The notes under the pieces are model-generated. The model did no database searches. It saw only the letters and a program-made list of their open reading frames with translations, and was not told the DNA's origin. From Deltaproteobacteria bacterium (lineage in GTDB: Bacteria > Desulfobacterota > Desulfobacteria > Desulfobacterales > G020354645): a DNA stretch of 64,000 nucleotides. Of this stretch, positions 42,819 through 63,829 are shown in pieces. The stretch's first letter is position 1, and every line of letters starts with the position of its first letter. The position numbers and the translations under genes were made by a program. The stretch covers positions 657,786-721,785 of the forward strand of contig CP070652.1 of NCBI GenBank assembly GCA_020354645.1, read 5' to 3'.

Positions 42819-44315
42819 ATGTGGAAAAAAACGAGTTTGCGAGGGCGCATATTTGGTGTTTTGGCCGTCATTGTCCTGATCACCATTGGGGGCGGTCTGG
42901 TCATGGTCTGGTATACGTACCAGATAGAAGGGCTTTTATCTTCTATCATTTACAGGAATATTGCCGCTTATCAGGCGGCCGAAGCTCTCGAAACGGCGCT
43001 TATCAATCAGAAAGGTTTTGTCTCTTACTACTTTATAGACGGCGATCCAACTTGGCTCCGGCAGTTGGGAGAATACCGCCAAATTTTCCGGGAGCGGCTT
43101 CGAACAGCCCGCGCACTTGCAGTAAATGATACCCAAAAAGAAGCCATTAATCGAATTGATCGGGAATACACCCTCTACATTACCGCCAAAGACCGCCTCA
43201 TCTCACTTTATGAAATCGGTGAGAGGGAAGCCGGCTCCGAACTTCACCCGGAAGTTCGCCAAAGCTTTTTCAAAATCCTCCGGCTCTGCGAAAATTACAA
43301 AGACATGAATAGGGAACAAATAATCCAGGCCAGAAAAACAAGTCAAACCCAGGCCAAAGAACTCAGGATCATCGCCGCATCGGCAATCTTTATCGATCTC
43401 ATTCTGGGTGCCCTTTTGGCAACTGTTATGGCAAAATCTATCTTAGGACCAATTCGCAGATTAACCCGGGAAGCCGATCGAACCGCGGGTAAATCTCATC
43501 CAGAGGATGAGATTCAGGCACTCAGCAACAGTGTTCGAAGTCTGATGGATGACGTTGATCAGACCAAGTCTGAACTCGAAAAAAGCAGGGAACACCTTTT
43601 GCAGTCGGAAAAAATGGCCATGATTGGAAAGCTGGCCGCCGGCATGGCCCACAGCATTCGCAATCCTTTCACTTCGGTGAAGATGCGACTCTTCTCCTTG
43701 AACCGTTCCTTGGAGCTCTCCGATACCCAGAAAGATGATTTCGACGTTATTTCCAAGGAGATTCGTCAAATTGACACCATCGTGCAAAATTTTCTGGAAT
43801 TCTCCCGTCCCCCGAAACTTGAGATGCAGCGCATCAGCCTATCTGCAGTCGTTGATTCAGTCATGGAATTGCTGGAGCATCGCCTGAAATCATATGATGT
43901 CGACATCCAAATCCATCGCCGGCAACCACTTCCGGAAATGATGGTGGATCCCGAACAAATGAAAGAAGTATTCGTCAATCTCGTGATAAACTCATGTGAG
44001 GCGTTAAAAAGGGGGGGGCGGATAGTCATTCATGAGGAGGTAAGCGTTACGCCACCTCTGGGCGAAGTAGCTGTGATTCGGGTAAGCGACAACGGTCCGG
44101 GTATTCACGATTCAATCAAAGATAAAATTTTGCAGCCTTTTTTTACCACTAAAGAAGAAGGTACCGGTCTCGGTCTGAGTATTGTTGCACGGATCGTTGA
44201 AGAACACCAAGGCCGTCTGGAAATTACATCGAAAAAAGGTGAGGAGACAACGTTCATTATTACACTTCCTTTAAAGGAGCCAGAGTTTGAGCACCATAAT
44301 GATCATAGACGATGA
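42819..44315 (+). CDS. Membrane sensor histidine kinase (4HB-like sensor)
   Basis: 498 aa. TM1 (about 12-34) and TM2 (about 186-206) enclose a helical periplasmic domain of about 150 residues resembling four-helix-bundle sensors. HAMP and a coiled coil follow, then H in AAGMAHSIRNPFTS, N box NLVINSCEAL, G1 DNGPGI and G2 GTGLGLSIVARI. Its 3' end overlaps the NtrC-type regulator gene by 29 nt, so they form a cognate pair. The stimulus is unknown; the putative target genes suggest redox, H2 or phosphate-like signals. Confidence 0.94.
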   Translation: MWKKTSLRGRIFGVLAVIVLITIGGGLVMVWYTYQIEGLLSSIIYRNIAAYQAAEALETALINQKGFVSYYFIDGDPTWLRQLGEYRQIFRERLRTARALAVNDTQKEAINRIDREYTLYITAKDRLISLYEIGEREAGSELHPEVRQSFFKILRLCENYKDMNREQIIQARKTSQTQAKELRIIAASAIFIDLILGALLATVMAKSILGPIRRLTREADRTAGKSHPEDEIQALSNSVRSLMDDVDQTKSELEKSREHLLQSEKMAMIGKLAAGMAHSIRNPFTSVKMRLFSLNRSLELSDTQKDDFDVISKEIRQIDTIVQNFLEFSRPPKLEMQRISLSAVVDSVMELLEHRLKSYDVDIQIHRRQPLPEMMVDPEQMKEVFVNLVINSCEALKRGGRIVIHEEVSVTPPLGEVAVIRVSDNGPGIHDSIKDKILQPFFTTKEEGTGLGLSIVARIVEEHQGRLEITSKKGEETTFIITLPLKEPEFEHHNDHRR

Positions 44316-45714
44316 CGATCAACTGCGCAAAAGCTTCCATAAACTTTTAGCTGAAGAAGGCTACCGCGTTTCAAGCGCAGCTTCCGGGGAAGCCGGCCTT
44401 GATTTAATTAAGAATCAAATGCCGGATCTGGTTATCCTGGACATGCGCCTGCCGGGAATGAGTGGACTGGAAACTTTTCAGAAAATTCAACAGATTGAGC
44501 CCAAGCTTCCGGTGATTATAATGACCGCCTACGGTACTACCGAATCGGCCATCGAAGCCACTAAAATGGGAGCTTTCGATTACATACTCAAACCGTTTGA
44601 AATTCCGGATATGCTTGCGGTCATCAATCAGGGCCTGGAGGCCGGTCGCTTCATGCGCTCTCCGGTTGACATGGATGTGACCCCGAGCACGGCTTCCCGT
44701 GAAGCGATTATCGGCCGCAGCAAGCCGATGCAGGATGTCTACAAGGCAATCGGAAAGGTTTCATCAACAGATGCTACCGTGCTCATCCGGGGAGGATCAG
44801 GCACCGGCAAGGAGTTGGTGGCCCGCGCCATTTATCAACACAGTCACCGAGCGGATAAACCGTTTCTGGTGATAAACTGCGTGGCGATTCCGGAAAATCT
44901 ATTGGAAAGCGAACTCTTTGGCTATGAAAAAGGTGCATTTACCGGTGCCACCTATCGGAAAATAGGGAAAATCGAACAAGCACATAAAGGAACTGTATTC
45001 CTTGACGAAATCGGCGATATGCCTTTTTCGATTCAGGCCAAGATACTAAGGTTGCTCCAGGAAAAAAGCATTGAGCGCCTCGGCGGTCGTGAATCGATTC
45101 CGGTGGATGTTCGCATTCTTGCCGCCACTAATCGAGATTTAGAATCAGCCCTTGAGCAGGGTCGATTTCGCGAAGACCTATATTACCGACTCAAGGTAGT
45201 TACCATCGCCTTGCCGCCACTACGTGAGCGTCAAAGCGATATACAGCTTCTGACCGAATATTTCCTTGCCCGTTATGTCGTCGAACTGGGTATGGAAAAT
45301 CCCGGTATCACACCGGAGGCGCTGGAAACTCTAAATAGCTACCACTGGCCCGGAAATATTCGCGAGCTGTCCAACACGATCCAAAAAGCGCTGATATTTA
45401 ACCGCGGTGCCCCGATTCGCCCTGAAGATATTACCCTGGCGATCAGTGCCCAGAGACCGGCCGAGGATATCGGAAAGGACACCGAAAAGGTCATCCGCGA
45501 ATGGGCCCGTGAAACACTGAGTTCCTGCGAAGAGAAGAATTTGTTTGATTCATGCATGGATTACATCGCCAGTGTGCTTATCAGTGAAGCGCTCGACCTG
45601 ACCGGCGGCAATCGTACCCGTGCGGCCGGACTTTTGGGTCTTTCTCGGCCCACCCTGCACGCTAAGATCGAAAAGTACGGCCTTCGGCTTGAGACTTCAG
45701 TTAAAAAAGACTAG
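44287..45714 (+). CDS. NtrC-family sigma-54 response regulator
   Basis: 475 aa. The receiver (1-120) has IIDDDDQL and phosphoacceptor Asp in VILDMRLPG. The AAA+ part (about 140-370) has Walker A GGSGTGKELVAR, the sigma-54 contact loop GAFTGA and Walker B GTVFLDEIGDM. The C-terminal Fis-type helix-turn-helix includes NRTRAAGLLGLSRPTLHAK. The start is TTG, 7 nt after AAGGAG, inside the kinase gene. Two sigma-54 promoters with matching upstream dyads lie at 46.1 and 51.8 kb. It is their best candidate activator. Confidence 0.95.
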   Translation: MSTIMIIDDDDQLRKSFHKLLAEEGYRVSSAASGEAGLDLIKNQMPDLVILDMRLPGMSGLETFQKIQQIEPKLPVIIMTAYGTTESAIEATKMGAFDYILKPFEIPDMLAVINQGLEAGRFMRSPVDMDVTPSTASREAIIGRSKPMQDVYKAIGKVSSTDATVLIRGGSGTGKELVARAIYQHSHRADKPFLVINCVAIPENLLESELFGYEKGAFTGATYRKIGKIEQAHKGTVFLDEIGDMPFSIQAKILRLLQEKSIERLGGRESIPVDVRILAATNRDLESALEQGRFREDLYYRLKVVTIALPPLRERQSDIQLLTEYFLARYVVELGMENPGITPEALETLNSYHWPGNIRELSNTIQKALIFNRGAPIRPEDITLAISAQRPAEDIGKDTEKVIREWARETLSSCEEKNLFDSCMDYIASVLISEALDLTGGNRTRAAGLLGLSRPTLHAKIEKYGLRLETSVKKD

Positions 45715-45836: not shown

Positions 45837-45869
45837 GCAAGGGGTGGTTTGAATTTATCCACCCCTTGC
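45837..45869 (+). terminator. Hairpin after the NtrC-type gene
   Basis: GCAAGGGGTGG (45837-45847) pairs exactly with 45859-45869 across an 11-nt loop. It lies about 120 nt after the regulator gene. No T-run follows, so it is a terminator candidate only. Confidence 0.5.
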
Positions 45870-45976: not shown

Positions 45977-46006
45977 TTTTACATTTTGTAAAAAAAGCTG
46001 ACATAT
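45977..46006 (+). promoter_or_regulatory. Putative enhancer site for sigma-54 activator
   Basis: TTTTACA-TTT-TGTAAAA is a dyad at 45977-45993. The 20 nt from 45987 match those from 51648 at 18 positions. The inner TGT begins exactly 114 nt before the -24 element of the sigma-54 promoter at 46101. The distance is identical at the second site. This arrangement fits binding of an NtrC-type dimer such as the product of the adjacent 44287 gene. Confidence 0.65.
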
Positions 46007-46100
46007 TTTCAGTCATTCCCTTTTGAATGATCACCCTTTAAACTTATTTATATCTCATATTTTCAGTTGATTAAGTCCTTCATTCGATGGTATTTTATCT

Positions 46101-46116
46101 TGGCACGGGGGTTGCT
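46101..46116 (+). promoter_or_regulatory. Sigma-54 promoter
   Basis: TGGCACGGGGGTTGCT matches the -24/-12 consensus TGGCAC-N5-TTGC completely. It lies 70 nt before the CBS-ACT gene at 46186 and would drive the CBS-ACT, Usp and hydrogenase genes if they are one transcript. The NtrC-type regulator is directly upstream. Confidence 0.85.
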
Positions 46117-46185
46117 CTGTTGGTTGTTATACTTTTTTATTCATACCGCCTTTGACTTTGACAATTAGTTGCGGGAGGTAGCCAC

Positions 46186-46863
46186 ATGTTAGTTAAAAAT
46201 TGGATGAGTAAAGACGTTATTACCGCAGACGTCACAGATTCCATGCAAGATGCCATGGGCCTTTTGAAACAGCACAACATTAAAATGCTTCCAGTGATGA
46301 AAAAAGGTAACCTTGTCGGTATTGTCACGGACCGGGACCTTAAGCGGGCGTCTGCCTCTGACGCTACTACCTTAGAGATACATGAACTGCTTTATCTGCT
46401 TTCCAAGATCAAGGTAGAAGAAATCATGACGAAAAATCCCATCACGGTCTTTGACGATTTCACAATCGAGGAAGCTGCAGAAATTCTGTTGAAAAACAAA
46501 ATATCCGGATTACCTGTAATTGACTCTGAAAAGCAGCTTGTAGGGGTTATCACCCAAACGGATATTTTCAGGGTTTTAATTTCACTCACCGGCGTTGGCA
46601 AAAAAGGCGTACAGTTCGCCTTTTTGCTCGAAGACCAATCCGGGTCAATCAAAACCGCCGCCGATATTATACGAAAACACGGCGGCCGCATGGTGAGTAT
46701 CCTGACATCCTATGAACGGGCACCGCAGGGATATCGCAACGTATATATCCGCATGACCGATATTGACCGCACCGCCCTTGAAAAACTCAAAGCAGAACTC
46801 AACCAAAGCGCCAAGCTACTGTATATGGTGGATCACCATCAAAACAAACGGGAAATCTATTAA
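46186..46863 (+). CDS. CBS-CBS-ACT protein
   Basis: 225 aa. Two CBS motifs (about 1-60 and 75-135: LVKNWMSKDVITA, GIVTDRDLKRAS, VEEIMTKNPITV, GVITQTDIFRVL) are followed by an ACT-like domain (about 143-215) beginning GVQFAFLLEDQSGSIKTAAD. It would sense adenine nucleotides and perhaps an amino acid. It is closely similar to 55238-55933 and related to 55958-56671. GGGAGG precedes the ATG. It is the first gene after a sigma-54 promoter and is followed by a Usp gene and hydBGDA. Confidence 0.9.
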   Translation: MLVKNWMSKDVITADVTDSMQDAMGLLKQHNIKMLPVMKKGNLVGIVTDRDLKRASASDATTLEIHELLYLLSKIKVEEIMTKNPITVFDDFTIEEAAEILLKNKISGLPVIDSEKQLVGVITQTDIFRVLISLTGVGKKGVQFAFLLEDQSGSIKTAADIIRKHGGRMVSILTSYERAPQGYRNVYIRMTDIDRTALEKLKAELNQSAKLLYMVDHHQNKREIY

Positions 46864-46988
46864 GGGAATCAACTCACAAAGATAAAGCTGCAAAGTCCTA
46901 TACGGTTGGTCAACTCAAAATCATAAGAAAGATCGAATGAAACAGACCCACACCATTATAAATCCCTTTAGAACGAAGGAGATTTGCT

Positions 46989-47441
46989 ATGAAAGAGTTT
47001 AAAAAAATATTGTTTCCGGTCGATCTTTCCGAATCTTCCGAAAAACTGGTTCCCTATGTGACAACAGTGGCGGAAAAATTTCAGGCTGAAATACACATCC
47101 TTTACGTGGGCAGGATATTTCAATATTTCACGAGCATTTATGTCCCTCACACTTCCATCAACAAATTTGAAGAAGAATTATTACAAGGAGCCGAAAAGCG
47201 CATGCAGGAATTCAAAGATTATTATTTTAAAGCATTTCCTGATACTAAAACCGCCGTGGTCCTGGGCGATGCATCTGAAGAAATTAAGCATTACAGTGAG
47301 GCTGAAAAGATAGATTTAATTATTGTGGGGACCCATGGCCGCAAAGGCTTGGATAAAGTGATTTTCGGTTCGGTAGCAGAGCAGGTGGTCAAAACAGCGC
47401 CAGTCCCTGTAATGGTGATAAATCCCTATAAAGTGTTGTAA
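46989..47441 (+). CDS. Universal stress protein
   Basis: 150 aa, a single UspA domain. It begins KKILFPVDLSESSEKLVPYV and ends with the ATP-binding loop GTHGRKGLDKVIFGSVAEQV (G-x2-G-x9-G-S), then PVPVMVINP. It is probably a dimeric nucleotide-binding cytoplasmic protein. AAGGAGA precedes the ATG. It stands between CBS-ACT (125 nt) and hydB (45 nt) in the putative sigma-54 operon. Confidence 0.93.
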   Translation: MKEFKKILFPVDLSESSEKLVPYVTTVAEKFQAEIHILYVGRIFQYFTSIYVPHTSINKFEEELLQGAEKRMQEFKDYYFKAFPDTKTAVVLGDASEEIKHYSEAEKIDLIIVGTHGRKGLDKVIFGSVAEQVVKTAPVPVMVINPYKVL

Positions 47442-47486
47442 TCGATAAATTCATAGCTTTTTAGCCTAAATTTAAGGAGCTTTCAA

Positions 47487-48530
47487 ATGCTGTATAAGAC
47501 TATTTCTAAAGCTAATTTTAAGGTGTTTATAAACGAGGTCATAGCAGGAAATGTTACCATCGCTCCTAAAATGACGGACAAAGATTCAGAAGGAAATCCT
47601 GTTTATCAATTCCAGCAGGTATACGCATTCGATGAAATCGCTCTGAATTATACCAAGACCTATTCATCGCTTAAAAACTTCTTTCTGCCTTTTAAAGAGA
47701 GCCTATCAACATTTCAGTTCGATAAAAATGAGTGGAAGCAAAAGATAGAATATTCCATCCATCCACGCGTGATCGTGGGAGTACGTGCCTGTGATATCAA
47801 TGGTCTTCTTAAACTCGACAATGTCCTGATGAAGGGCAAATATCCAAGCCCCTACTATGTCGCCCGCAGAACAAACACGTTTTTAATCGGACTTGACCAT
47901 GAGCCAATGGCGGACTGTTTTTGCCAGTCTTTAAATTCTGATGAAGCTTTGCATGGATTTGATTTATTTCTAACGGATATTGGAGATAAATACTTTATGC
48001 AAATAAACTCTTCAAAGGCGTTCAATCTGTTTAAAAACGTCCAAATTAATGACATCGAAACAGAGGATGAGGAAAAATACATCGCGGAAAAAAAGAGAAT
48101 AGCGAGCCTGTTTAAAACCAGAGTTGCCATAACGGGTCTTTCAAATCTTATGGATATTGAATTCGAATCCGATGTCTGGAAAAAGTGGGGAGATAAGTGT
48201 TTAAGCTGCGGCACCTGCGCCATGGTTTGTCCCACGTGCTATTGTTTTACGGTTACCGAAAGCATTGATGTTTCCCTGAAGTTCGCTCTCAAAGAAAAAG
48301 TACTGTATTCCTGCAACTTGGTTGACTTTGCCGAAGTTGCCGGCGGTCATAACTTCAGACCGGAGCCAGCAACCCGATTGAAGTACAGATTCTACCACCA
48401 GCACAGGGGGTTTGTTGAAAGTTACGATGAACCCAAGTGTGTCGGATGCAACCGATGCGGCATAGCTTGTCCGGCTGGAATCAATCCAATAGATGTCATT
48501 CACGATCTTAGAATGGAGGATGTAAAATGA
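47487..48530 (+). CDS. hydB: Group 3b-type hydrogenase beta subunit (4Fe-4S)
   Basis: 347 aa. It resembles the HydB subunit of cytoplasmic sulfhydrogenases: a long N-terminal part with [17 protein letters not shown], then two ferredoxin clusters, [16 protein letters not shown] (about 235) and [14 protein letters not shown] (about 315). It would carry electrons between the flavin subunit and the small subunit. AAGGAG lies before the ATG, and the stop overlaps hydG as ATGA. Gene order beta-gamma-delta-alpha is that of archaeal and bacterial group 3b enzymes. Confidence 0.9.
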
Positions 48531-49435
48531 GTTATGAAATCCCAAGGGAAAACATTGCTGCAGAGCCGTTTATGGCAGGGCCTCCGGATTTTAATCGGAA
48601 AAGCCGCTTGATGCAAACCGATAAAGTCTATGAATGCATGATCACCAATATCGTTGAACTTACCGATATGGAAAAACTTTTCCACCTCAAAATCATGGAT
48701 CCTGGTGAAAGCAGGCTTTTCACCTTTCGACCGGGGCAGTTCCTTATGCTTGAATTGCCGGGCTTCGGAGAAATCCCGATTTCCATATCCGGCTCCTCAG
48801 CAATCAGAGAGCGAATAGGTCTGTGTATCAGAAAAGCCGGAAAGGTAACCAACATGCTTCACAAGGCCCGTATTGGAACCAAGGTGGGTGTGAGGGGGCC
48901 ATTCGGAACCCATTTTCCTCTGGAGCGAATGGTGGGCCACAATATCCTCCTGATTGCCGGAGGCTTGGGGCTGGCACCCTTGAGAGCGCCGATTTACTGG
49001 GTAAACGAACACAGGTCAGAGTATGCTGATGTTGCTATTATGTATGGTACCAAAAGACCAAAAGACATCCTGTTTGACTATCAGTTTGATATGTGGGGCA
49101 AGATTTATAATTATGACATCCATCTTATCGTAGAAGAACCTGATGAAAACTGGAAAGGCAGGGTCGGCTTGATTACCGAACTTTTTAATGAAGTTGATAT
49201 CGACCCCCATAGAACTTATGCCATCGTTTGCGGACCACCGGTCATGTTCAAATTTGTCTGTAATCATTTAAATCAAGTCGGAATTCCTATGGATCGCATG
49301 TTTGTCACACTTGAAAGAAGAATGCACTGCGGTATGGGCAAGTGCTGCCGGTGTATGGTGGGCTCCACTTTTACCTGTGTGGATGGTCCGGTTATGGATT
49401 ACTGGACAGTGATGAATTTGAAAGAGGCCATATAA
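48527..49435 (+). CDS. hydG: Group 3b-type hydrogenase gamma subunit (FAD/NAD(P))
   Basis: 302 aa of the ferredoxin-NADP reductase fold. The FAD part includes [12 protein letters not shown] and [10 protein letters not shown]; the nucleotide part has [19 protein letters not shown] and the later IVCGPP motif. A C-terminal Cys group ([11 protein letters not shown], then C) binds a 2Fe-2S cluster. It would exchange hydride with NAD(P)H and feed the hydrogenase module. It overlaps hydB by 4 nt and is 16 nt before hydD. Confidence 0.92.
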
Positions 49436-49451
49436 TGAAAGGAGGCTCACA

Positions 49452-50216
49452 TTGGAGTACCTGGGAATAGAATTAAAAAAGCCAAAAGTCTCTTTTTTCG
49501 ATTTCACCTGCTGTGAAGGATGCCAATTACAGATTGCCAATAAAGAGGATACCCTGGTTGATTTTCTCTCCCTGGTTGAAGTGGTAAATTTTCGTGAAAT
49601 TTCTTCGGAAAAAAAAGACCACTATGAAATTGCTTTCATTGAGGGGGCAATTTCAAGACAGGATGAGATCGAGCGTCTGGAAAAAATTAGAAAACAGGCA
49701 AAGCTGGTGGTGGCCCTGGGGACCTGTGCCTGCTACGGAGGTGTAAATTCATTAAAAAAAAGATTTTCAGTTGAGGATGTGGTTAACGAGGTTTACGGCC
49801 ATAATCCCGTCGAGACATTGCCTGTCAAAAGTGTCAAAGAAGTGGTTGCCGTCGATTTTGAAATTCCCGGTTGCCCCATATCTAAAGCTGAATTCGAAAG
49901 CATCATACTGCACCTTGTTTTAGGGACTGAGTTTCGTTTCAAAAAATATCCCGTCTGTGTCGAATGCAAACAGAATCTCAACCACTGCCTGCTCGATGAA
50001 GGCAAGATATGTTTGGGCCCCATTACTCGCGCCGGTTGCAACGCAGTCTGCATCAACGGCAAGCTGCCCTGCTATGGATGCAGGGGCCCGGCAGAAGAAA
50101 ACAACTGGCCTTCACTAAAACAGATATTAACCGAGAAGGGTTTTTCCCCGGAACAGATTGACGAGAAAACCTCATTTTTTAATTCACTGACGGAGGTCAC
50201 GAAAAATGAAAGTTGA
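49452..50216 (+). CDS. hydD: Group 3b-type NiFe hydrogenase small subunit
   Basis: 254 aa. The proximal-cluster motif is clear in FFDFTCCEGCQLQI and ALGTCACYGG, with PGCPI further on. C-terminal cysteines in VCVECKQN, KICLGPITRAGC and LPCYGCRGP bind further Fe-S clusters. There is no Tat signal, so the enzyme is cytoplasmic. The start is TTG, with GGAGG 6 nt upstream; no ATG fits. It overlaps hydA by 11 nt. Confidence 0.93.
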   Translation: MEYLGIELKKPKVSFFDFTCCEGCQLQIANKEDTLVDFLSLVEVVNFREISSEKKDHYEIAFIEGAISRQDEIERLEKIRKQAKLVVALGTCACYGGVNSLKKRFSVEDVVNEVYGHNPVETLPVKSVKEVVAVDFEIPGCPISKAEFESIILHLVLGTEFRFKKYPVCVECKQNLNHCLLDEGKICLGPITRAGCNAVCINGKLPCYGCRGPAEENNWPSLKQILTEKGFSPEQIDEKTSFFNSLTEVTKNES

Positions 50217-51474
50217 CATGAATATTGATGTTCATCATCTTACACGGGTGGAGGGACACGGAAATATTCATATTAATGTTAAAAAGGGCAAACTGGTGGA
50301 TGCCAGGTGGGCTGTCGTCGAAACGCCCCGGTTTTTTGAGGCCATGCTCAGAGGCATGTCCTGTGAAATGGCGCCCATTTTAACGGCGCGCATCTGCGGT
50401 ATCTGTTCAATCGGCCACGCCCTTGCGTCTCTGAGAGCAATAGAGAATGCGCTGGGAATCGATATACCGGTGATTGCCAAAAAGATACGGCTGCTTGCCA
50501 AACACGGTGAGACCTTGCAGAGCCATTTTCTTCATCTTTTTTTCCTGGCCGCACCGGACTACTTAAACGTGGGAAGCGTAATTCCGCTTGTTCAATCAAA
50601 CCGTGCGGTGGTGGAAATTGCACTTCGCCTAAAAAGGCTGGCAAACGATATGTGCGATATTCTGGCCGGAAGAACGACTCACCCGGTGAGCTTGTGCGTA
50701 GGCGGCGTTAGCAGACCTCCCAATAAAGAGGATCTTCATAAATTAAGAGAACAAATATCTGAAAGAATTCCTGATGCAGAAAGGACTGTGGAACTCTTTA
50801 AAACAATTCAGGTCCCGGATTTTATCAGGGAAACAGAGTATGTTTCCCTGAAAGGCGAAGAGAATTACCCCTGGATCGGGGGAAAGCTGGTTTCAACGGA
50901 CGGGGTGTTGAAAAATGAAAATGATTATCTCGCTATGACCAACGAGTATAAAGAGGATTTTTCAACCAGCAAATTTACACGGTTAAGCCGTAAGTCAGTT
51001 GCCGTTGGGGCGTTGGCAAGACTGAACAATAATTATAATTTCCTGAAGGCCAAAGATATTGCAGAAGAATTTGGGATAAAACCCTTAAACCACAATCCCT
51101 TTATGAATAACATCGCACAGTTAGTAGAATGCGTGCACGTAATGATCGAATCGCTTGAACTATTAGACGAACTTTTAGATGAGCCTATGGACGAGATATC
51201 TTCGGAATACGATATAAAAGAAGGAGAAGGAGTTGGCGCAGTAGAAGTTCCGAGAGGAATTCTGTACCATCACTATTTGATAAATAAAAAGGGATTGGTT
51301 GAAAAAGCCAACTGCATCATACCCACCACCCAGAATAATGCCAATATTCATTACGACTTGGCGGAGCTGGTGGAACAGGCAGTTAATAACGGTAAACAGG
51401 ACACCGAGGTTAAAAAGCTTTGTGAAATGCTGGTGCGGGCCTATGACCCGTGTATATCATGTTCGGTCCATTAA
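50206..51474 (+). CDS. hydA: Group 3b-type NiFe hydrogenase large subunit
   Basis: 422 aa. The N-terminal nickel motif is RICGICSIGHA and the C-terminal one DPCISCSVH, so all four Cys ligands are present. The reading frame ends exactly at the His of the C-terminal motif. The peptide that a maturation protease normally removes is therefore missing. The catalysed reaction is reversible H2 oxidation with NAD(P) or sulfur reduction. No hyp or protease genes are in the window. GGAGG lies before the ATG within hydD. Confidence 0.94.
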   Translation: MKVDMNIDVHHLTRVEGHGNIHINVKKGKLVDARWAVVETPRFFEAMLRGMSCEMAPILTARICGICSIGHALASLRAIENALGIDIPVIAKKIRLLAKHGETLQSHFLHLFFLAAPDYLNVGSVIPLVQSNRAVVEIALRLKRLANDMCDILAGRTTHPVSLCVGGVSRPPNKEDLHKLREQISERIPDAERTVELFKTIQVPDFIRETEYVSLKGEENYPWIGGKLVSTDGVLKNENDYLAMTNEYKEDFSTSKFTRLSRKSVAVGALARLNNNYNFLKAKDIAEEFGIKPLNHNPFMNNIAQLVECVHVMIESLELLDELLDEPMDEISSEYDIKEGEGVGAVEVPRGILYHHYLINKKGLVEKANCIIPTTQNNANIHYDLAELVEQAVNNGKQDTEVKKLCEMLVRAYDPCISCSVH

Positions 51475-51637
51475 AATATGCACAGCGGATATATGAATCA
51501 CCGAAGCGATTTTTAATCAATTTCAATTTCTCACTTCGCCAATGTCATTCCGATCAAAACCGAAAACAGGATGGTTAAGCGTACAGATTTTAACCGTTCG
51601 CTTGAGAGCCTCTCAATCTTTCTTTCAAACAGCCGCT

Positions 51638-51667
51638 TTTTACAACCTGTAAAAAAAACAGACATAT
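51638..51667 (+). promoter_or_regulatory. Second putative enhancer site
   Basis: TTTTACA-ACC-TGTAAAA (51638-51654) repeats the dyad at 45977 with the same 3-nt spacer. The right half plus flank matches that site at 18 of 20 positions. The inner TGT is 114 nt before the -24 element at 51762, as at the first site. Confidence 0.65.
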
Positions 51668-51761
51668 ACCCCTTCTGAACATCCTGGATTTCAATGTTTC
51701 ATTTTATAATATTGGTCGTTATTTCTAATAGTTAAGTTACAACTTTTTGGGTACGGCCTGC

Positions 51762-51777
51762 TGGCACACTGGTTGCT
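51762..51777 (+). promoter_or_regulatory. Sigma-54 promoter
   Basis: TGGCACACTGGTTGCT has the exact -24 TGGCAC and -12 TTGC elements at the correct 5-nt spacing. It lies 142 nt before the ATG of the PstS-like gene in the 430-bp gap after hydA, which otherwise holds no gene. Confidence 0.85.
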
Positions 51778-51903
51778 TTATTAATTGGTAACCCTGCATT
51801 TTAAGCCAAGATCTGAAACTATAAGATATTGGAATTAATTATCCGGAAACCCAAAATAGAAAATGGGATTGATCCATACAGCCTTTATAAAGGAGGTAAA
51901 ATT

Positions 51904-52716
51904 ATGAAGAAAATATCTATTTTCCGATTGGCAATAGTTGGCGCTTACCTGTTGAGCGGGATCGTTTTAACCGTTAACGGGGTAACCGCCCAAGAATTAT
52001 TAAAATATGCCTGCTCCAATCAGGTATTTAACGCATTTGAAATGGATAACTTAAAGGAGTTTACAAAGACGACTGGAATTGAAATGGATGTGCACACTGC
52101 TTCATCCGGCTCTTGTGTGTACCGGCTTATGAACGGCTATTGTGATATTGCCAGCACTGCCAGAGAACTCTATCGCCGCCACCAGGAATACGGCTACACT
52201 CAAATACCGTTTGCCAAGGACCCCTTAGCTATTATCGCCCACAAAAGATGCGGGGTAGAGAATCTTGCTTCAGAGCAGCTTCAAGATATTTTCAGCGGCG
52301 ATATTACCAACTGGAAAGAACTGGGAGGGGCCGACCTGCCGATCACGATTATTGTTCCGGCAGAAGATACGGCAGCCAATAAGAACTTCCGGCGCCAGGT
52401 TATGAAGCATAAGGAAATTAAACATGACTTCATGGCCTATGATTCCACCATGGTCATCGAAGCGGTTAAGCATTTCCCGTGCAGTACCATATCCTTCATC
52501 TCCCAAGGGGCTGCCCTGCATCACGAGGAAATAATAACAATCAAAATCGACGGATATTATCCAACCGATAAAGATTATCCTTATTATCAGATATTCTATT
52601 ACATTATCCGAGGAGAACCCGCTGGAGATGTGAAGAAATTCATCGATTTTACTTTTTCCGAGCAAGGTGCGGAAATACTGAAAAGAAACGGCACCTTACC
52701 TATTGCCAGAAAATGA
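51904..52716 (+). CDS. PstS-like periplasmic binding protein
   Basis: 270 aa from ATG 51904, which has AAAGGAGG upstream and is followed by a signal peptide (KKISIFRLAIVG then a hydrophobic core, cleavage near VTAQE). The rest matches PstS-type solute binders: SGSCVYRLMNGYCDIASTAR, LASEQLQDIFSGDITNWKEL and the late GAEILKRNGTLPI. The ligand may be phosphate or another oxyanion. No Pst permease genes are adjacent, so it could work with a distant transporter or as a sensor. A sigma-54 promoter precedes it. Confidence 0.85.
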   Translation: MKKISIFRLAIVGAYLLSGIVLTVNGVTAQELLKYACSNQVFNAFEMDNLKEFTKTTGIEMDVHTASSGSCVYRLMNGYCDIASTARELYRRHQEYGYTQIPFAKDPLAIIAHKRCGVENLASEQLQDIFSGDITNWKELGGADLPITIIVPAEDTAANKNFRRQVMKHKEIKHDFMAYDSTMVIEAVKHFPCSTISFISQGAALHHEEIITIKIDGYYPTDKDYPYYQIFYYIIRGEPAGDVKKFIDFTFSEQGAEILKRNGTLPIARK

Positions 52717-54584: not shown

Positions 54585-54798
54585 GCAGCCTCACTTTATT
54601 TGAGCTTTTTAGAAAGCCGCGTTCGAAAATTTTCTACACTTATCGAAAAAATTAAACATATCAGGCTGGGCCATTGCGTAAAAATCTCTGTAACCCTATA
54701 GGTTAACTGCATTAATACTTTATGGCATATTTTATGCTTAATAACTGTAAATAAGGCCTTACAACAAATAACTTATTTATTTTAAGGTTCAAGCAGTG

Positions 54799-55206
54799 AT
54801 GGATTTATTTCAGAAATTACAAGATATGAAAATCTTGCTGATTGATGATGATGAGTGGGTAAGAGATTCCCTGTGCCTGTTTTTCGAAAGTGAGGGGTGT
54901 CATATACTTGCATTGGAGACCGCTGAGGAGGGACTAGAAGTTCTTGATAAACAAGATTTCGACATCATTATAATCGATTATCGTTTACCGGGTTTGGATG
55001 GTCTTGAATTTTTAAGACGGATTCAAAAGAGATATCCTGTTGCCATGAAAATTCTCATTACCGCTTACGGAAATGAAGAACTTGTTGCGGAAGCACGGAA
55101 GCTTGGCGTCCATGAATATATCTCGAAACCATTTACATCCGAAGCAATTGAAGCGTCCTTAAATCGCTTGATTGAAAATCGAGAGAGCGGTCAAGTTTCA
55201 ACATGA
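54799..55206 (+). CDS. Single-domain response regulator
   Basis: 135 aa, receiver only: LLIDDDEWV, phosphoacceptor in IIIIDYRLPG, Thr in ILITAYGN and Lys in YISKPFTS. A GTG directly before the ATG is an alternative start. No strong ribosome site is seen. It is 31 nt before a CBS-ACT gene in the same direction, so it may act with it. No histidine kinase is adjacent. Confidence 0.92.
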   Translation: MDLFQKLQDMKILLIDDDEWVRDSLCLFFESEGCHILALETAEEGLEVLDKQDFDIIIIDYRLPGLDGLEFLRRIQKRYPVAMKILITAYGNEELVAEARKLGVHEYISKPFTSEAIEASLNRLIENRESGQVST

Positions 55207-55237
55207 TATTAAAACATAAGTGGGGAGGTGGTTTACG

Positions 55238-55933
55238 ATGTTGGTCAAAAATTGGATGAGTACAAATGTTATCACGGTGAACCAGATTAATTCCATGGAA
55301 GATGCCATGGGTCTCATAAAAAAGCATAAAATTAAAATGCTGCCGGTTCTGAACAAAAACAAACTGGTAGGAATTGTTACAGATAGAGATCTGAAAAGGG
55401 CTTCTGCATCAGACGCCACTTCTCTAGAAATTCATGAACTGCTCTATCTTATTACAAAAATAAAGGTGCAAGATATCATGTCCATCCCCCCCATCACGAT
55501 TCCTGACGGTTACACTGTAGAGGAAGCTGCCGAAGTGTTATTGAAAAATAATATTTCCGGAGCTCCGGTAGTCGATAACAATGGACAGATTATGGGGGTC
55601 ATCACCCAAAATGATATTTTTCGAGTATTAATTTCGCTGACCGGGGTCGGAAAAAAAGGCGTGCAATTTGCGTTTCAGCTCGATGATCGACCGGGGTCGA
55701 TAAAAGAAGTTGCTGATATCATCCGGGCATATGGCGGGCGTATGGTGAGCATATTAAGCTCTTATGAAGGCCTGGCTAAAGGGTATCACAAAGTTTACAT
55801 ACGCATGGATGGTATCGACGGTCCAAAACTGGATGAACTTGAAGAAGAGCTCAGGCAAAAGGCTAGCGTGATGTATGTTGTGAATAACAGCGGAGATAAA
55901 AGAGCATTTCGTCAAAATCAGCATTCGACTTAA
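55238..55933 (+). CDS. CBS-CBS-ACT protein
   Basis: 231 aa, very similar to 46186-46863: LVKNWMSTNVITV, GIVTDRDLKRASASDA and GVITQNDIFRVLISLTGVG, then the ACT-like GVQFAFQLDDRPGSIKEVAD. GGGGAGGTGG lies before the ATG; a GTG upstream overlaps it. It is 24 nt before a second CBS-ACT gene. It probably senses adenine nucleotides and acts through protein contact, as no output domain is attached. Confidence 0.92.
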   Translation: MLVKNWMSTNVITVNQINSMEDAMGLIKKHKIKMLPVLNKNKLVGIVTDRDLKRASASDATSLEIHELLYLITKIKVQDIMSIPPITIPDGYTVEEAAEVLLKNNISGAPVVDNNGQIMGVITQNDIFRVLISLTGVGKKGVQFAFQLDDRPGSIKEVADIIRAYGGRMVSILSSYEGLAKGYHKVYIRMDGIDGPKLDELEEELRQKASVMYVVNNSGDKRAFRQNQHST

Positions 55934-55957
55934 TAGAAAAATCCGGAGGAACGCTTT

Positions 55958-56671
55958 ATGTTGGTCGCAAACTGGATGACAAGAAATGTTATCGCGGTAG
56001 ACAAGTGCGATTCCGTTGAAGTCGCCGAGGATCTGCTAAAACAGCATAGTATCAGCTTATTGCCGGTAATGGCACAAGAAAAGCTTTGCGGAGTTGTTTC
56101 CAGTGGTGATTTATATCGGACAATAAATTCTTTAGCCGCAGCGCAGGAGGATCTTGATCTTAAAGATAAGGTCTCGCATATGACGGTCGGTCAGGTAATG
56201 ACACCAAACGTTATTACCGTGCCCGCAGACTTTACGGTGGAAGAAACGATTGAACTTCTAATTAAAAATAAGATCCATGGAGTTCCTGTAACTAATGATA
56301 AAAAAGAGGTCTTAGGAGTTATCACCCAAACGGATTTATTAAAAGCCGTTGTTGACTTGACGGGTGCCAGCCGCAGAGGTATACAATATGGCTTTGTGGT
56401 GGAAGATCGCCCAGGCTCGATCAAGGAACTTATTGATACAATTCACAATTTCGGCGGTCGCATGGCCAGTATTATGACGTCCTATGAGGGCGTACCAGGC
56501 GGATACCGCCGAGCCTATATTCGGATGTACGGTATCGATCGATTCCGGCTGAACAGCCTCAATGAAGCGCTCGAAGAAAAAGCGAATCTTGTTTATGTCG
56601 TCGATCATCTTGAGATCCGAAAAGAGATATCTACGAACGCAAATTCAATCGCTCTTTGTCCATCCAAATAA
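55958..56671 (+). CDS. CBS-CBS-ACT protein (diverged paralogue)
   Basis: 237 aa, same order as its neighbour but less similar: LVANWMTRNVIAVD, GVVSSGDLYRTI and GVITQTDLLKAVVDLTG, then the ACT-like GIQYGFVVEDRPGSIKELID. The second CBS is well conserved, the first less so (GVVSSGDL in place of GIVTDRDL). GGAGGA precedes the ATG. The cytidylate-kinase-like gene follows after 47 nt. Confidence 0.91.
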   Translation: MLVANWMTRNVIAVDKCDSVEVAEDLLKQHSISLLPVMAQEKLCGVVSSGDLYRTINSLAAAQEDLDLKDKVSHMTVGQVMTPNVITVPADFTVEETIELLIKNKIHGVPVTNDKKEVLGVITQTDLLKAVVDLTGASRRGIQYGFVVEDRPGSIKELIDTIHNFGGRMASIMTSYEGVPGGYRRAYIRMYGIDRFRLNSLNEALEEKANLVYVVDHLEIRKEISTNANSIALCPSK

Positions 56672-56718
56672 ACCAAGAAGAGATAATCAAAAAAATCGAA
56701 ATAAATACGAGGTGTTAT

Positions 56719-57462
56719 ATGGTCTCCCCTAATACTTATTTTGAAAATTATCTTAGACAAAATAAAAACAGCAAATTTAATGAATTCAACCAAGTGGATA
56801 AACACGCGACAGAAATAGAAAAAAGGTTGCAGAAGCTTGAAAAGATAAAAGCAACGCTTGAGTTGCCCAATACGATTTGCTTATCACGACAAATCGGGAT
56901 CGGCGCCCTGGGTAGTGCCGAAATGTTAGGACAAAAATTGGGATATTTTGTTGCCGATCGAGAGATAGTAACCCAAATTGCCAGAAATGGCTATTATAGC
57001 CAGAGAGCTGTTAAATTATTTGACGAACGTTATCCTGGAAAAATGAATGAGTTGATGTCAAAATATTTTTCAGTTAAGTCATTCGACTTTAAAGATTACA
57101 TGCAGCATCTGATCGCGGCCATTTACACCCTTGCTGAGACCGGACCTACCATTTTTGTCGGCAGGGGAGCATACAGAATTATCCCGTGTGAATATGTATT
57201 AGGGATTCGACTCATCGCATCAATGCAATACCGGGTAAAGCGTGTGGCGCATCTATACTCGTTGGGAGAAGATGTTGCAGAAGAAAAATTAAAGCAAATG
57301 GACAGTGAACAGAAAGATTTTTTCAGAAAAGCATTCGGAAAAACAGGACCATCTCCATCCGAATTTGATCTTGTTATCAATCTTGACTACTTTCATGATC
57401 ACCAGTGGATTGCGTCCGTAATAGAACATGCTTTCAGACAGAAGTTTGGAGCTGCTGAATAA
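56719..57462 (+). CDS. Cytidylate-kinase-like protein
   Basis: 247 aa from ATG 56719, with GAGG upstream; a TTG start 63 nt earlier would overlap the preceding gene. Residues about 55-245 match the cytidylate kinase-like family: ICLSRQIGIGALGSAEMLGQ, LGYFVADREIV, FVGRGAYRIIP and a late FDLVINLDYF. The P-loop is closer to canonical than in the two BON-bearing paralogues but has G-I-G-A-L where G-S-G-G is usual. No BON-like tail is present. Confidence 0.82.
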   Translation: MVSPNTYFENYLRQNKNSKFNEFNQVDKHATEIEKRLQKLEKIKATLELPNTICLSRQIGIGALGSAEMLGQKLGYFVADREIVTQIARNGYYSQRAVKLFDERYPGKMNELMSKYFSVKSFDFKDYMQHLIAAIYTLAETGPTIFVGRGAYRIIPCEYVLGIRLIASMQYRVKRVAHLYSLGEDVAEEKLKQMDSEQKDFFRKAFGKTGPSPSEFDLVINLDYFHDHQWIASVIEHAFRQKFGAAE

Positions 57463-59110: not shown

Positions 59111-59127
59111 TTTTACAGCCTGTAAGA
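59111..59127. promoter_or_regulatory. Third copy of the TTTTACA dyad
   Basis: TTTTACA-GCC-TGTAAGA has the same half-sites and 3-nt spacer as the two putative enhancer sites, with one change. It lies between convergent genes and no sigma-54 promoter is at the expected distance, so a terminator-like stem is as likely. Confidence 0.35.
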
Positions 59128-60621: not shown

Positions 60622-61527
60622 TTATTCTCTAAGAATTCTCTCCATTTCAAAAAACAGGTCCTGCTCCCGAATGACACCGACAACTTCCCCGGAAACTACG
60701 ACCGCCAGTCTCCGAACTTTATTTTCAAGCATCATGTATGCGGCTTCCATTAGGCTTGCTTTTCCATCTATAGTTATCGGTGCAGGGGACATGACATCCT
60801 TAATTTTTGTGTCAGCGTTCCTCTTTATTTCCTTGCTGAACATTCCGGCCCAAAACATAGGAGAGTATTGAATGGTGTCTGCGGTGGAGGGTTTAGGGGC
60901 CGACAGGTAGGCCGGCATTATCATTTCAAGCAGATCCGTTATCGCAAGACTCCCAATAACATTTTTATTATTATTATCCATCACGAGGATGGAGCGGTGA
61001 CCCGTTTCCATGATCCGGCTGGTGGATGCTATGGAGGTAAATGACGTTTTCAATTTTAAAATGGCATCTTTTACGCTGGCATCCTCACTAATTGTGGAAT
61101 ATTCCTCAAAGGTAACCATGACGCCCAAAACCCTTTTTTCTTCGATGATGCCCGGCTCTCTATTGTATTGGAAGGCATCATTGATTTTAGCCGAAAGCAG
61201 GTCTATATCACAAGGTTTTGTCAAATAATCGACGGCTCCGTCAGCGAGGGCTTTCTCGGCGGACGGCAGCGCCCCGTGTCCGGTAAGCATGATTACCGGT
61301 ATGCCCGGGACACGTTTTTTTATCTCTTTCAAGACCTGGTGGCCGTCCATACCGTGCATTTTGACATCAAGGATCACCACATCCGGATTTTCATTAAGTT
61401 TATCGATGGCTTCTTCGCCACTGGCTGCCAGGATAGTTTCGAATCCTCGTCTGTTCAGAATCTTTTTGGTGGTCGCCCGAAACTGTTTTTCATCATCGAC
61501 CATTAACACCTTTATTTTTTCATTCAT
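60622..61527 (-). CDS. Response regulator with CBS output domain
   Basis: 301 aa. The receiver (1-120) has LMVDDEKQF, phosphoacceptor in VVILDVKMHG, Thr in IMLTGHGA and Lys in YLTKPCDI. A CBS pair (about 140-300) follows, with VTFEEYSTISEDA, VIGSLAITDLLEM, IKDVMSPAPITI and VVGVIREQDLFFE. The insert between the CBS motifs resembles that in 39962-40516. It joins phosphorylation and adenine-nucleotide sensing in one protein. CGGAGA lies before the ATG at 61527. It reads the same way as the DASS carrier upstream. Confidence 0.92.
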   Translation of the reverse strand: MNEKIKVLMVDDEKQFRATTKKILNRRGFETILAASGEEAIDKLNENPDVVILDVKMHGMDGHQVLKEIKKRVPGIPVIMLTGHGALPSAEKALADGAVDYLTKPCDIDLLSAKINDAFQYNREPGIIEEKRVLGVMVTFEEYSTISEDASVKDAILKLKTSFTSIASTSRIMETGHRSILVMDNNNKNVIGSLAITDLLEMIMPAYLSAPKPSTADTIQYSPMFWAGMFSKEIKRNADTKIKDVMSPAPITIDGKASLMEAAYMMLENKVRRLAVVVSGEVVGVIREQDLFFEMERILRE

Positions 61528-61573
61528 AACATAAATCTCCGTGCGCTTATGCGGCAAATTTTGACACGCTTCT

Positions 61574-61735: not shown

Positions 61736-61779
61736 GGTGCATCCCTTTTTTTAATCGACAATTTTAAATCTGAATTTTT

Positions 61780-61978
61780 TAATTACTTGAGAGGTCGGGG
61801 AGTTTTATTGATCCATTGTCGTAAGTCTTTTGTTTTTCTGCAATTTGGCAGCGGGGGAGACCGCAGCCACCGAAGGTGGAATGCGCAGGGGGCAAGTATC
61901 CCCCGCTGCCGAATTGCTTAGAAAAACAAAGACCGGAGGCACAGAGTCAAAAAAACTCCCCGACCCCTCAATTACTTA
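61780..61978. repeat. Long imperfect inverted repeat abutting a stop codon
   Basis: Arms of about 78 nt (61780-61858 and 61899-61978) pair imperfectly, for example GGTCGGGGAGTTTT with AAAACTCCCCGACC and GGCAGCGGGGGA with TCCCCCGCTGCC. The loop has its own stem, CCACC-GAA-GGTGG. The outer end reaches the stop codon of the DASS carrier, so it probably serves as its terminator. Confidence 0.8.
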
Positions 61979-63829
61979 AAATCCCGGAAGGTCACCGAAC
62001 CCTCTGAACATCCAATAACCCGCCGTTAGTAAGATGAGAAAGATGTTGGCAACGACCCACATGATAATTCCGACTCTGATATAATCTTTTGGCTCGAGGT
62101 AGCCACTGGCATAGACAATTGCGTTTGGCGGCGTACCGATGATCAGGCAATAAGCAAAGGAAGAGGCGCACGCTGTGCCCATTGCCATAAACGGCAGAAA
62201 AATGGTTCCCGGGTGAACCAAAGCTGCCATATTCAAGGATATGGGACCGACCGCTGCCGCAGCCGGACCGTCGGCCATCAGATTGGTAATAGCGGCCGTA
62301 AGGCCGTTGTTGACCAGCATCAGAGGAATTCCAGAATCGACACCCAGTGGGGCGAGCATCTCAATACAGGTTTTTGCCAGCCAATAGGCAGCTCCCGTAC
62401 CGTCAAGGGTTCTTCCGAAAATAATGGCTCCGGCATAAAGCCAGACCACTCCCCAGTCTACTTTTTCCTGGTAGTCTCTCCAGTTAACAACACCCGCCAT
62501 AATATAGGCCGCTGCTCCTGCAATTGCGATCACACCGATCCCAAGCCGCACCGGATAAATGCCCATATCGAAGAAGATCTTCTCCGTAAACCAGCCCCCC
62601 AGCATGATCAGGAAGATGATCAATGCCCAGATTTGTTTTTTGTTCCAGCCGCCCATCTTTCCTATTTCATTTTTTAATTGATCCATGGCCGGGGCCAAGG
62701 AGCTGACCCGCGGTTTAAACCGCCAATTCACAATGAACCAGGTAACCGGAATCATGACCAAAACAAAAGGCATGGCATAGCTCACCCACTGAAAATAACC
62801 GATGTCGAAACCGAACATATCATCCAGGTAAGTCATCATGATTACATTTCTGGCACCGCCGGATGGCGCACCGAAACCGCCGACGTTACAGGCCATGGCT
62901 ATTGTAATCATCAGCATCTTAGCCAACTCCGGATCTTCCGGCACTTCTTTTGTCAAGCTGTTTTGATAAAGTAGTATGCCAATAGGAAGAAACATGGCAG
63001 CCAGAGCGTGGTCGGAGATAAATGATGCCAGTGGAGAAATGATGATAAAAAAGATGAGAGAGATCCATCTGGTGTTTGGGACGGCCAGCTTTCTGAAAAT
63101 TAACAGGCAGACCCGCTTATCCACCCCCGTTTTTACAAAAGCAACGGCAAACATGAGGCTGCCCATAATAAACCAGCAGGCATCACTCCAGTAGAGCATG
63201 GCCACCTCATTTCTTGTTACAACGCCTGTAAAAACCAGGATCAACCCAATACAAAACGCTACCCCCGGGAGGGGGATACACTCCGTCAAAAAGCAAAAGA
63301 CAACAAACACCGCCATGGCAATGGCCACCTTGATATGCCAGGCGCCCTTATCCGCCGCTTTCTTATCTTGGCCGACCAAATTTTCATATTTGAGCCTATC
63401 CTTTCTTAGCTCCAGTGATTTTGCCATCAGGCTTGCAAAAGCCTTACGGGTAACATTTTCCTTAATATGCCGTTGGGCCCTCTCGAGGTTTTTTGGATCC
63501 GCCTGAATCTTGTATTTTTTGCACCAATTTAGATCGCGTTTTAAAAACCGTTGCTGGGTGAGAGCTCCCATGCGCATATTGCGCTCCATCATCTGAGCGG
63601 CCAGAAGCTGCCATTGGGATACATCTGAGCTCTTTAAACCGAAAAGTTCTTTAGTGATATAATTCACAACAGCTTCAGGCCCCACCCTGTATTCCGTGCC
63701 CACATCCTTCATGCCATAAGGGGTCGGCAACATCAAAATTAGAAAAAACAGCCCCACCGGAAAAATGAAAAGTTTCCAATTTACATACTTGTCGTATCCG
63801 GTTTCCTTGCGGGTCCTCTTATCAGTCAT
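61976..63829 (-). CDS. DASS (SLC13) family anion symporter, long N-terminus
   Basis: 617 aa. TM1 (about 20-40) is followed by a soluble, charged region of about 125 residues, then the carrier core from about 165. Signatures are CFLTECIPLPGVAFCIGLIL, the SFISDHALAAMFLPIGILLY segment, GAPSGGARNVIMMTYL and, near the end, LIIGTPPNAIVYASGYLEP. The long N-terminal insert is unlike the other DASS carriers here. The substrate is probably a dicarboxylate or sulfate. GGAAGGA precedes the ATG. No promoter is obvious in 63830-64000, which has no other gene. Confidence 0.9.
   Translation of the reverse strand: MTDKRTRKETGYDKYVNWKLFIFPVGLFFLILMLPTPYGMKDVGTEYRVGPEAVVNYITKELFGLKSSDVSQWQLLAAQMMERNMRMGALTQQRFLKRDLNWCKKYKIQADPKNLERAQRHIKENVTRKAFASLMAKSLELRKDRLKYENLVGQDKKAADKGAWHIKVAIAMAVFVVFCFLTECIPLPGVAFCIGLILVFTGVVTRNEVAMLYWSDACWFIMGSLMFAVAFVKTGVDKRVCLLIFRKLAVPNTRWISLIFFIIISPLASFISDHALAAMFLPIGILLYQNSLTKEVPEDPELAKMLMITIAMACNVGGFGAPSGGARNVIMMTYLDDMFGFDIGYFQWVSYAMPFVLVMIPVTWFIVNWRFKPRVSSLAPAMDQLKNEIGKMGGWNKKQIWALIIFLIMLGGWFTEKIFFDMGIYPVRLGIGVIAIAGAAAYIMAGVVNWRDYQEKVDWGVVWLYAGAIIFGRTLDGTGAAYWLAKTCIEMLAPLGVDSGIPLMLVNNGLTAAITNLMADGPAAAAVGPISLNMAALVHPGTIFLPFMAMGTACASSFAYCLIIGTPPNAIVYASGYLEPKDYIRVGIIMWVVANIFLILLTAGYWMFRGFGDLPGF

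Follow-up and report, generated by a model that had tools for sequence, protein, structure and literature searches.

The 64,000 nt of DNA from a relative of sulfate-reducing bacteria analysed here (the window; C1:657786-721785 of a complete 5.57-Mb contig) contain two predicted sigma-54 promoters which are preceded by the same dyad at the same distance, and the gene of an NtrC-type response regulator is located close by. The locus raises the question whether this dyad is the site at which the regulator encoded at 44287 acts, and which operons such a site would place under common control.

A shared element upstream of two predicted sigma-54 promoters

The following regulatory features were assigned in the window:

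42819..44315, + strand: sensor histidine kinase (4HB_MCP-like input, HisKA, HATPase; Pfam), overlapping the regulator gene
44287..45714, + strand: NtrC-type response regulator (REC, AAA+ with GAFTGA, Fis-type HTH; Pfam, GAFTGA motif, orthologs), proposed binder of the element
45837..45869, + strand: hairpin GCAAGGGGTGG...CCACCCCTTGC 3' of the regulator gene (sequence reading, unscored)
45977..46003, + strand: enhancer A, TTTTACA-N3-TGTAAAA with a GACA third half-site (pattern search and cross-genome alignment)
46101..46115, + strand: predicted sigma-54 promoter A, TGGCACGGGGGTTGC (sequence pattern)
51638..51664, + strand: enhancer B, TTTTACA-N3-TGTAAAA with GACA (pattern search and cross-genome alignment)
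51762..51776, + strand: predicted sigma-54 promoter B, TGGCACACTGGTTGC (sequence pattern)

In the window sequence dyad A reads TTTTACATTTTGTAAAA (45977-45993) and dyad B TTTTACAACCTGTAAAA (51638-51654). Their inner TGT starts at 45987 and 51648, respectively, and the distance to the TGG of the promoter is 114 nt at both. This confirms the positions and the spacing given by the sequence-only reading, which had placed TGGCAC-N5-TTGC at 46101 and 51762 with the dyads exactly 114 nt upstream. The match of the right half and its flank at 18 of 20 positions, reported there as well, is accounted for by the conservation of a third half-site missed by that reading, namely GACA at 46000-46003 (enhancer A) and 51661-51664 (enhancer B). 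Judged from the sequence, the dyad makes up two of the three parts of the element. The complete site reads TTTACA-N3-TGTAAA-N7-GACA, with three half-sites arranged as ACA-N3-TGT-N11-ACA. At the level of sequence the -24/-12 pattern TGGCAC-N5-TTGC is present at the target genes. The hairpin at 45837..45869 may separate the regulator gene from the next operon.

Occurrence in the host genome and across the phylum

The exact 17-bp dyad was detected at two places in the 5.57-Mb genome, both in the window, and at nine further places at one mismatch. The exact promoter pattern TGGCACN5TTGC occurs at 23 sites genome-wide, of which two (promoters A and B) have the dyad upstream. The genome search for dyad and promoter, which the sequence-only reading had proposed, thus found the exact dyad only at the two window promoters, but the full site at two further promoters, at C1:724174 (minus strand, spacing 111) and at C1:3523685 (plus strand, spacing 91). 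The four elements are located at C1:703763, 709424, 724269 and 3523585. Ranked by mismatches to the dyad with GACA, the top four matches (0, 0, 0 and 1) coincide with the four places where a sigma-54 promoter follows. When up to three mismatches were allowed, 65 matches were obtained genome-wide versus 74 for the reversed-pattern control; this search yields background only and no further members. The one-mismatch dyad TTTTACAGCCTGTAAGA at 59111-59127, which has neither GACA nor a -24/-12 site, was not counted, and a half-dyad alone at 115 (L032, C1:5183542) was excluded as weak. A promoter was sought at the other one-mismatch dyads in the genome and none was found.

The phylum (Desulfobacterota) was searched in 395 genomes for TTTACANNNTGTAAA followed by TGGCA-N6-TTGC at 85-115 nt. 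Dyad and promoter were found together at 81 sites in 47 of the 395 genomes, the reversed pattern at none; the enrichment of the dyad before sigma-54 promoters, on which the sequence-only reading had made its proposal depend, is therefore seen both in the host genome and in the phylum. Its conservation in relatives is likewise evident, since 46 further genomes have this element at a conserved, helically phased spacing. The distance from the inner TGT to the TGG is 110-117 nt in 65 and 100-106 nt in 13 of the 81 sites, with a maximum at 112 nt and a second maximum about one helical turn shorter, and two such phased peaks are expected if a protein bound to the site must face the polymerase. Although GACA was absent from the search pattern, its bases are conserved in 87% (G), 87% (A), 97% (C) and 96% (A) of the 81 aligned sites. 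Also outside the search pattern, a C or T preceding the first T and A-rich positions following TGTAAA are conserved in the dyad-aligned sites.

When the 81 promoters were aligned, two A/T-rich stretches approximately 10 bp apart were seen some 27-45 bp upstream of the TGG. Lying between enhancer and promoter, they possibly represent a curvature or a factor site.

In an independent scan, loci around relatives of the regulator were gathered by protein similarity and searched for a partial motif together with a sigma-54 site. The right part alone gave 21 sites, nearly all of which also have a recognisable left half, and the left dyad alone gave 23 sites, most of them with GACA. The control loci, about 1.02 Mb around distant genes of the NtrC family (mostly from other phyla), gave no site with either partial motif. 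A literature search for the motif string returned no match.

The regulator encoded at 44287 and its pairing with the element

The AAA+ domain of the 44287 regulator matches Pfam Sigma54_activat (1.2e-72) and contains the GAFTGA loop, and no second GAFTGA protein is encoded in the window. Against the NCBIfam ntrC equivalog TIGR01818 it scores 496 bits and thereby stays below the cut-off of 558.6 for NtrC (NR-I) proper. The widely conserved DVU2394 was rejected as its identity because DVU2394 has GSFTGA, whereas the examined orthologs have GAFTGA.

Regulator relatives were defined by approximately 57% identity over the full length or, for a partial gene, by at least 64%. Close relatives are encoded by 74 of the 395 genomes, and 43 of the 47 site genomes are among these (Fisher p = 1.2e-32 for co-occurrence, a test that ignores shared ancestry). 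With these thresholds the ortholog is almost always present as one copy per genome. The four site genomes in which no ortholog was detected are 62-85% complete. In 20 genomes, a total of 28 sites are found no more than 15 kb from the regulator gene, and for nine of these the distance is 15-267 nt, as in the window. Across 44 orthologs the HTH residues SRPTL never change, whereas more distant relatives vary at these positions. An exact site match is absent from 31 of the 74 ortholog genomes, including the Desulfovibrionaceae of the first sample; some sites in Desulfovibrionaceae carry substitutions (L250, L252, L255, L256), and none was found when Nitratidesulfovibrio-like loci were scanned for the element.

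The pairing of regulator and element is strongly supported by these data, and from it we infer binding. That the response regulator encoded at 44287-45714 uses this element as its upstream activating site has, in our estimate, a probability of about 0.86. The claim that this regulator controls both operons is supported in so far as the site tracks the regulator orthologs in presence and position; it was too narrow, as the predicted regulon comprises at least four operons and its operator appears tripartite.

It seems unlikely that a different activator of the NtrC family, or two paralogs sharing one site, binds the element, with the 44287 regulator as one of them or as a mere neighbour. Enhancer-binding paralogs with an identical site have been documented in D. 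vulgaris (DVU0539/DVU0946; PMC3333781), and the missing ortholog in four site genomes would agree with another activator. However, these genomes are incomplete, proximity and co-occurrence point to the 44287 regulator, nearly all genomes have a single copy of the ortholog, and the window encodes no other GAFTGA protein. The dyad might also serve a repressor or a global factor, or act through DNA curvature, and merely co-occur with the promoters, considering that AT-rich palindromes of such form fit several HTH dimers and that AT-rich stretches lie between element and promoters. We regard this as very improbable in view of the fixed, helically phased distance to the -24/-12 promoter, the link to one activator and the reversed pattern count of zero. 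Hardly any weight can be given to chance, or to promoter B being a recent duplicate of promoter A: the two sites are indeed only 5.7 kb apart, but they resemble each other only in the element and the promoter core, and the element recurs between unrelated flanks in 46 other genomes.

Provided that the element is the activating site of the 44287 regulator, the histidine kinase encoded at 42819 would phosphorylate the regulator, whose Fis-type HTH dimer would bind TGT-N11-ACA, the usual 17-bp geometry known for NtrC-type proteins. About two turns away, a second dimer would dock on the TTTACA half-site, which faces outward, and the assembled AAA+ ring would loop to the sigma-54 RNA polymerase and open the promoter. 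The host regulon would thereby be turned on as an energy- or stress-state response, a label we infer only from the annotation of its targets.

Predicted targets and relation to known systems

At least four operons (A to D) carry the predicted site in the host genome. Their genes in the window, including probable and possible members, are:

46186..46863, + strand: CBS-ACT protein, first gene of operon A (Pfam CBS pair)
46989..47441, + strand: universal stress protein (Pfam)
47487..48530, + strand: HydB-like 4Fe-4S subunit (Pfam)
48527..49435, + strand: HydG-like FAD/NAD-binding subunit (Pfam)
49452..50216, + strand: HydD-like hydrogenase small subunit, sulfhydrogenase delta type (Pfam; NCBIfam match below cut-off)
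50206..51474, + strand: HydA-like NiFe hydrogenase large subunit (Pfam)
51904..52716, + strand: PstS-like substrate-binding protein (Pfam, ORF list)
60622..61557, - strand: receiver and CBS protein, possible distal operon C gene (Pfam)
61976..63829, - strand: DASS-type anion transporter, probable operon C member (Pfam, recurrence of the gene set)

Operon A (promoter 46101) comprises the CBS-ACT, Usp and NiFe hydrogenase subunit genes. The ACT part of the 46186 protein was called by the sequence-only reading, and a weak ACT match was obtained only in a 69% relative (L159). Operon B (promoter 51762) comprises the PstS-like gene and possibly also the following Usp genes; the PstS-like gene starts with ATG at 51904 after AAGGAGG, while the longest ORF begins with TTG at 51829. 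A second PstS-like gene near C1:735 kb, 86% identical to the window copy, has the identical core promoter and a similar leader, and no tripartite element was found in its upstream region (promoter C1:735323, minus strand, L037). The same core promoter combined with a difference in the enhancer suggests that the two copies are under different control. Another NtrC-type gene (36%) is located near the second copy.

The first genes of operon C (promoter C1:724174, minus strand) encode a Cache histidine kinase and a receiver. Its promoter and enhancer are located about 2.5 kb beyond the window, and the operon probably extends into the window's right end (63829-60622) with the DASS anion transporter gene and possibly also the receiver-CBS gene. 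Operon D (C1:3523685) encodes two CoA-transferase subunits and an acyl-CoA synthetase/GNAT protein.

Two other regions of the window were noted. The intergenic sequence at about 61760-61970 (TTTGTTTTTCT...CAATTTGGCAG..., AAAAACACCCCGACC) recurs in similar form at other places of the genome, also upstream of the promoters in L023 and L025, and is apparently a dispersed repeat. Furthermore, a gene group at 54796-57462, 3' of two Usp genes, encodes a protein consisting of a receiver alone and two additional CBS paralogs (CBS-ACT type) and includes a cytidylate-kinase-like gene; no tripartite element was found there.

In other genomes the sites are followed by genes for Usp, CBS-ACT proteins, receivers with Cache kinases, a DVU0150-family protein with TauE/SafE and DUF4881, and furthermore acyl-CoA synthetase/GNAT, PPDK-like protein, ATP sulfurylase, PhoU, acetyl-CoA hydrolase and DASS transporter. 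In L152, L160, L197 and L198, too, the site is followed by an operon that combines kinase, receiver and DASS genes. A search of the host genome for the DUF4881 family gave no match, nor did the control. An operon of receiver, Cache kinase, receiver(s), TauE, a protein of about 240 aa and a PPDK-like protein is conserved next to the regulator ortholog (L240/L258, L239/L257, L250, L252, L253), including in Desulfovibrionaceae.

Neither hydrogenase nor PstS-like genes were found near the sites examined in other genomes. The suggested regulon linking H2 use and oxyanion binding is consequently only partly supported, such targets being seen only in the host; the link would at most be something that this lineage has added locally to a regulon otherwise made up of Usp, CBS-ACT, Cache kinase/receiver, anion-transporter and acyl-CoA genes.

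NtrC/glnA-type enhancers are 17-bp TGC-N11-GCA-like sites about 100-150 nt upstream of the promoter and are bound by an AAA+ activator. The element described here shares the 17-bp N11 geometry, the upstream position and the AAA+ activator, but differs in its sequence, its extra outward half-site and a much stricter spacing. With a GAFTGA-containing AAA+ activator, -24/-12 promoters and a linked conserved upstream site, the predicted system belongs to the sigma-54 bacterial enhancer-binding-protein regulons.

For D. vulgaris, motifs have been reported in which TGT and ACA half-sites are 9, 11 or 12 bp apart (Kazakov 2015, PMC4641369). DVU0539 and DVU0946 are two-component sigma-54 regulators and paralogs sharing one site (Rajeev 2011, PMC3333781), their orthologs and motif have been reported in Desulfatibacillum alkenivorans (PMC3333781; PMC4641369), and a cluster linked to DVU0539 is responsive to molybdate (PMC10102598). 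Both this system and that of the 44287 regulator combine a two-component NtrC-type regulator and sigma-54 promoters with Usp and transporter targets. In Nitratidesulfovibrio-like genomes (a label based on flavodoxin similarity), however, the 44287 regulator has single-copy relatives (64%), with the next match at 49% or less. The 44287 regulator thus probably lies outside the DVU0539/DVU0946 orthogroup. The DVU2956 site has likewise been described as three conserved half-sites and was tested by EMSA; DVU2956 is a one-component regulator without N-terminal domain and has a different target operon (PMC4641369). As regards the DVU0151/DVU0150-DVU0146 operon, genes of the DVU0150 family are, along with TauE and DUF4881 genes, frequent targets of the present element too, but DVU0151 is a one-component protein whose loop reads GAFSEA and whose DNA-binding region is winged-helix-like (PMC4641369), unlike the two-component 44287 regulator with its Fis-type HTH.

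Very probably this is a genuine regulon of stress and energy functions, phylum-wide in extent and familiar in kind. With some reservation we favour the view that it is an unreported, phylum-wide Desulfobacterota regulon in which one two-component activator acts through one tripartite, fixed-spacing enhancer on recurring targets (Usp, CBS-ACT, Cache kinase/receiver, TauE or DASS, PPDK-like, acyl-CoA synthetase/GNAT) and to which individual lineages add respiratory genes such as NiFe hydrogenase.

Few sigma-54 two-component regulators in sulfate reducers and their relatives have known targets. For one such regulator, which is conserved and apparently uncharacterised, the present analysis proposes a binding site and a list of targets. 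With a defined 27-bp site and a fixed spacing its regulon would become predictable from genome sequence, its kinase input can be sought in culturable species, and orphan Usp, CBS-ACT, TauE/DVU0150 and Cache-kinase operons would be tied to one signal.
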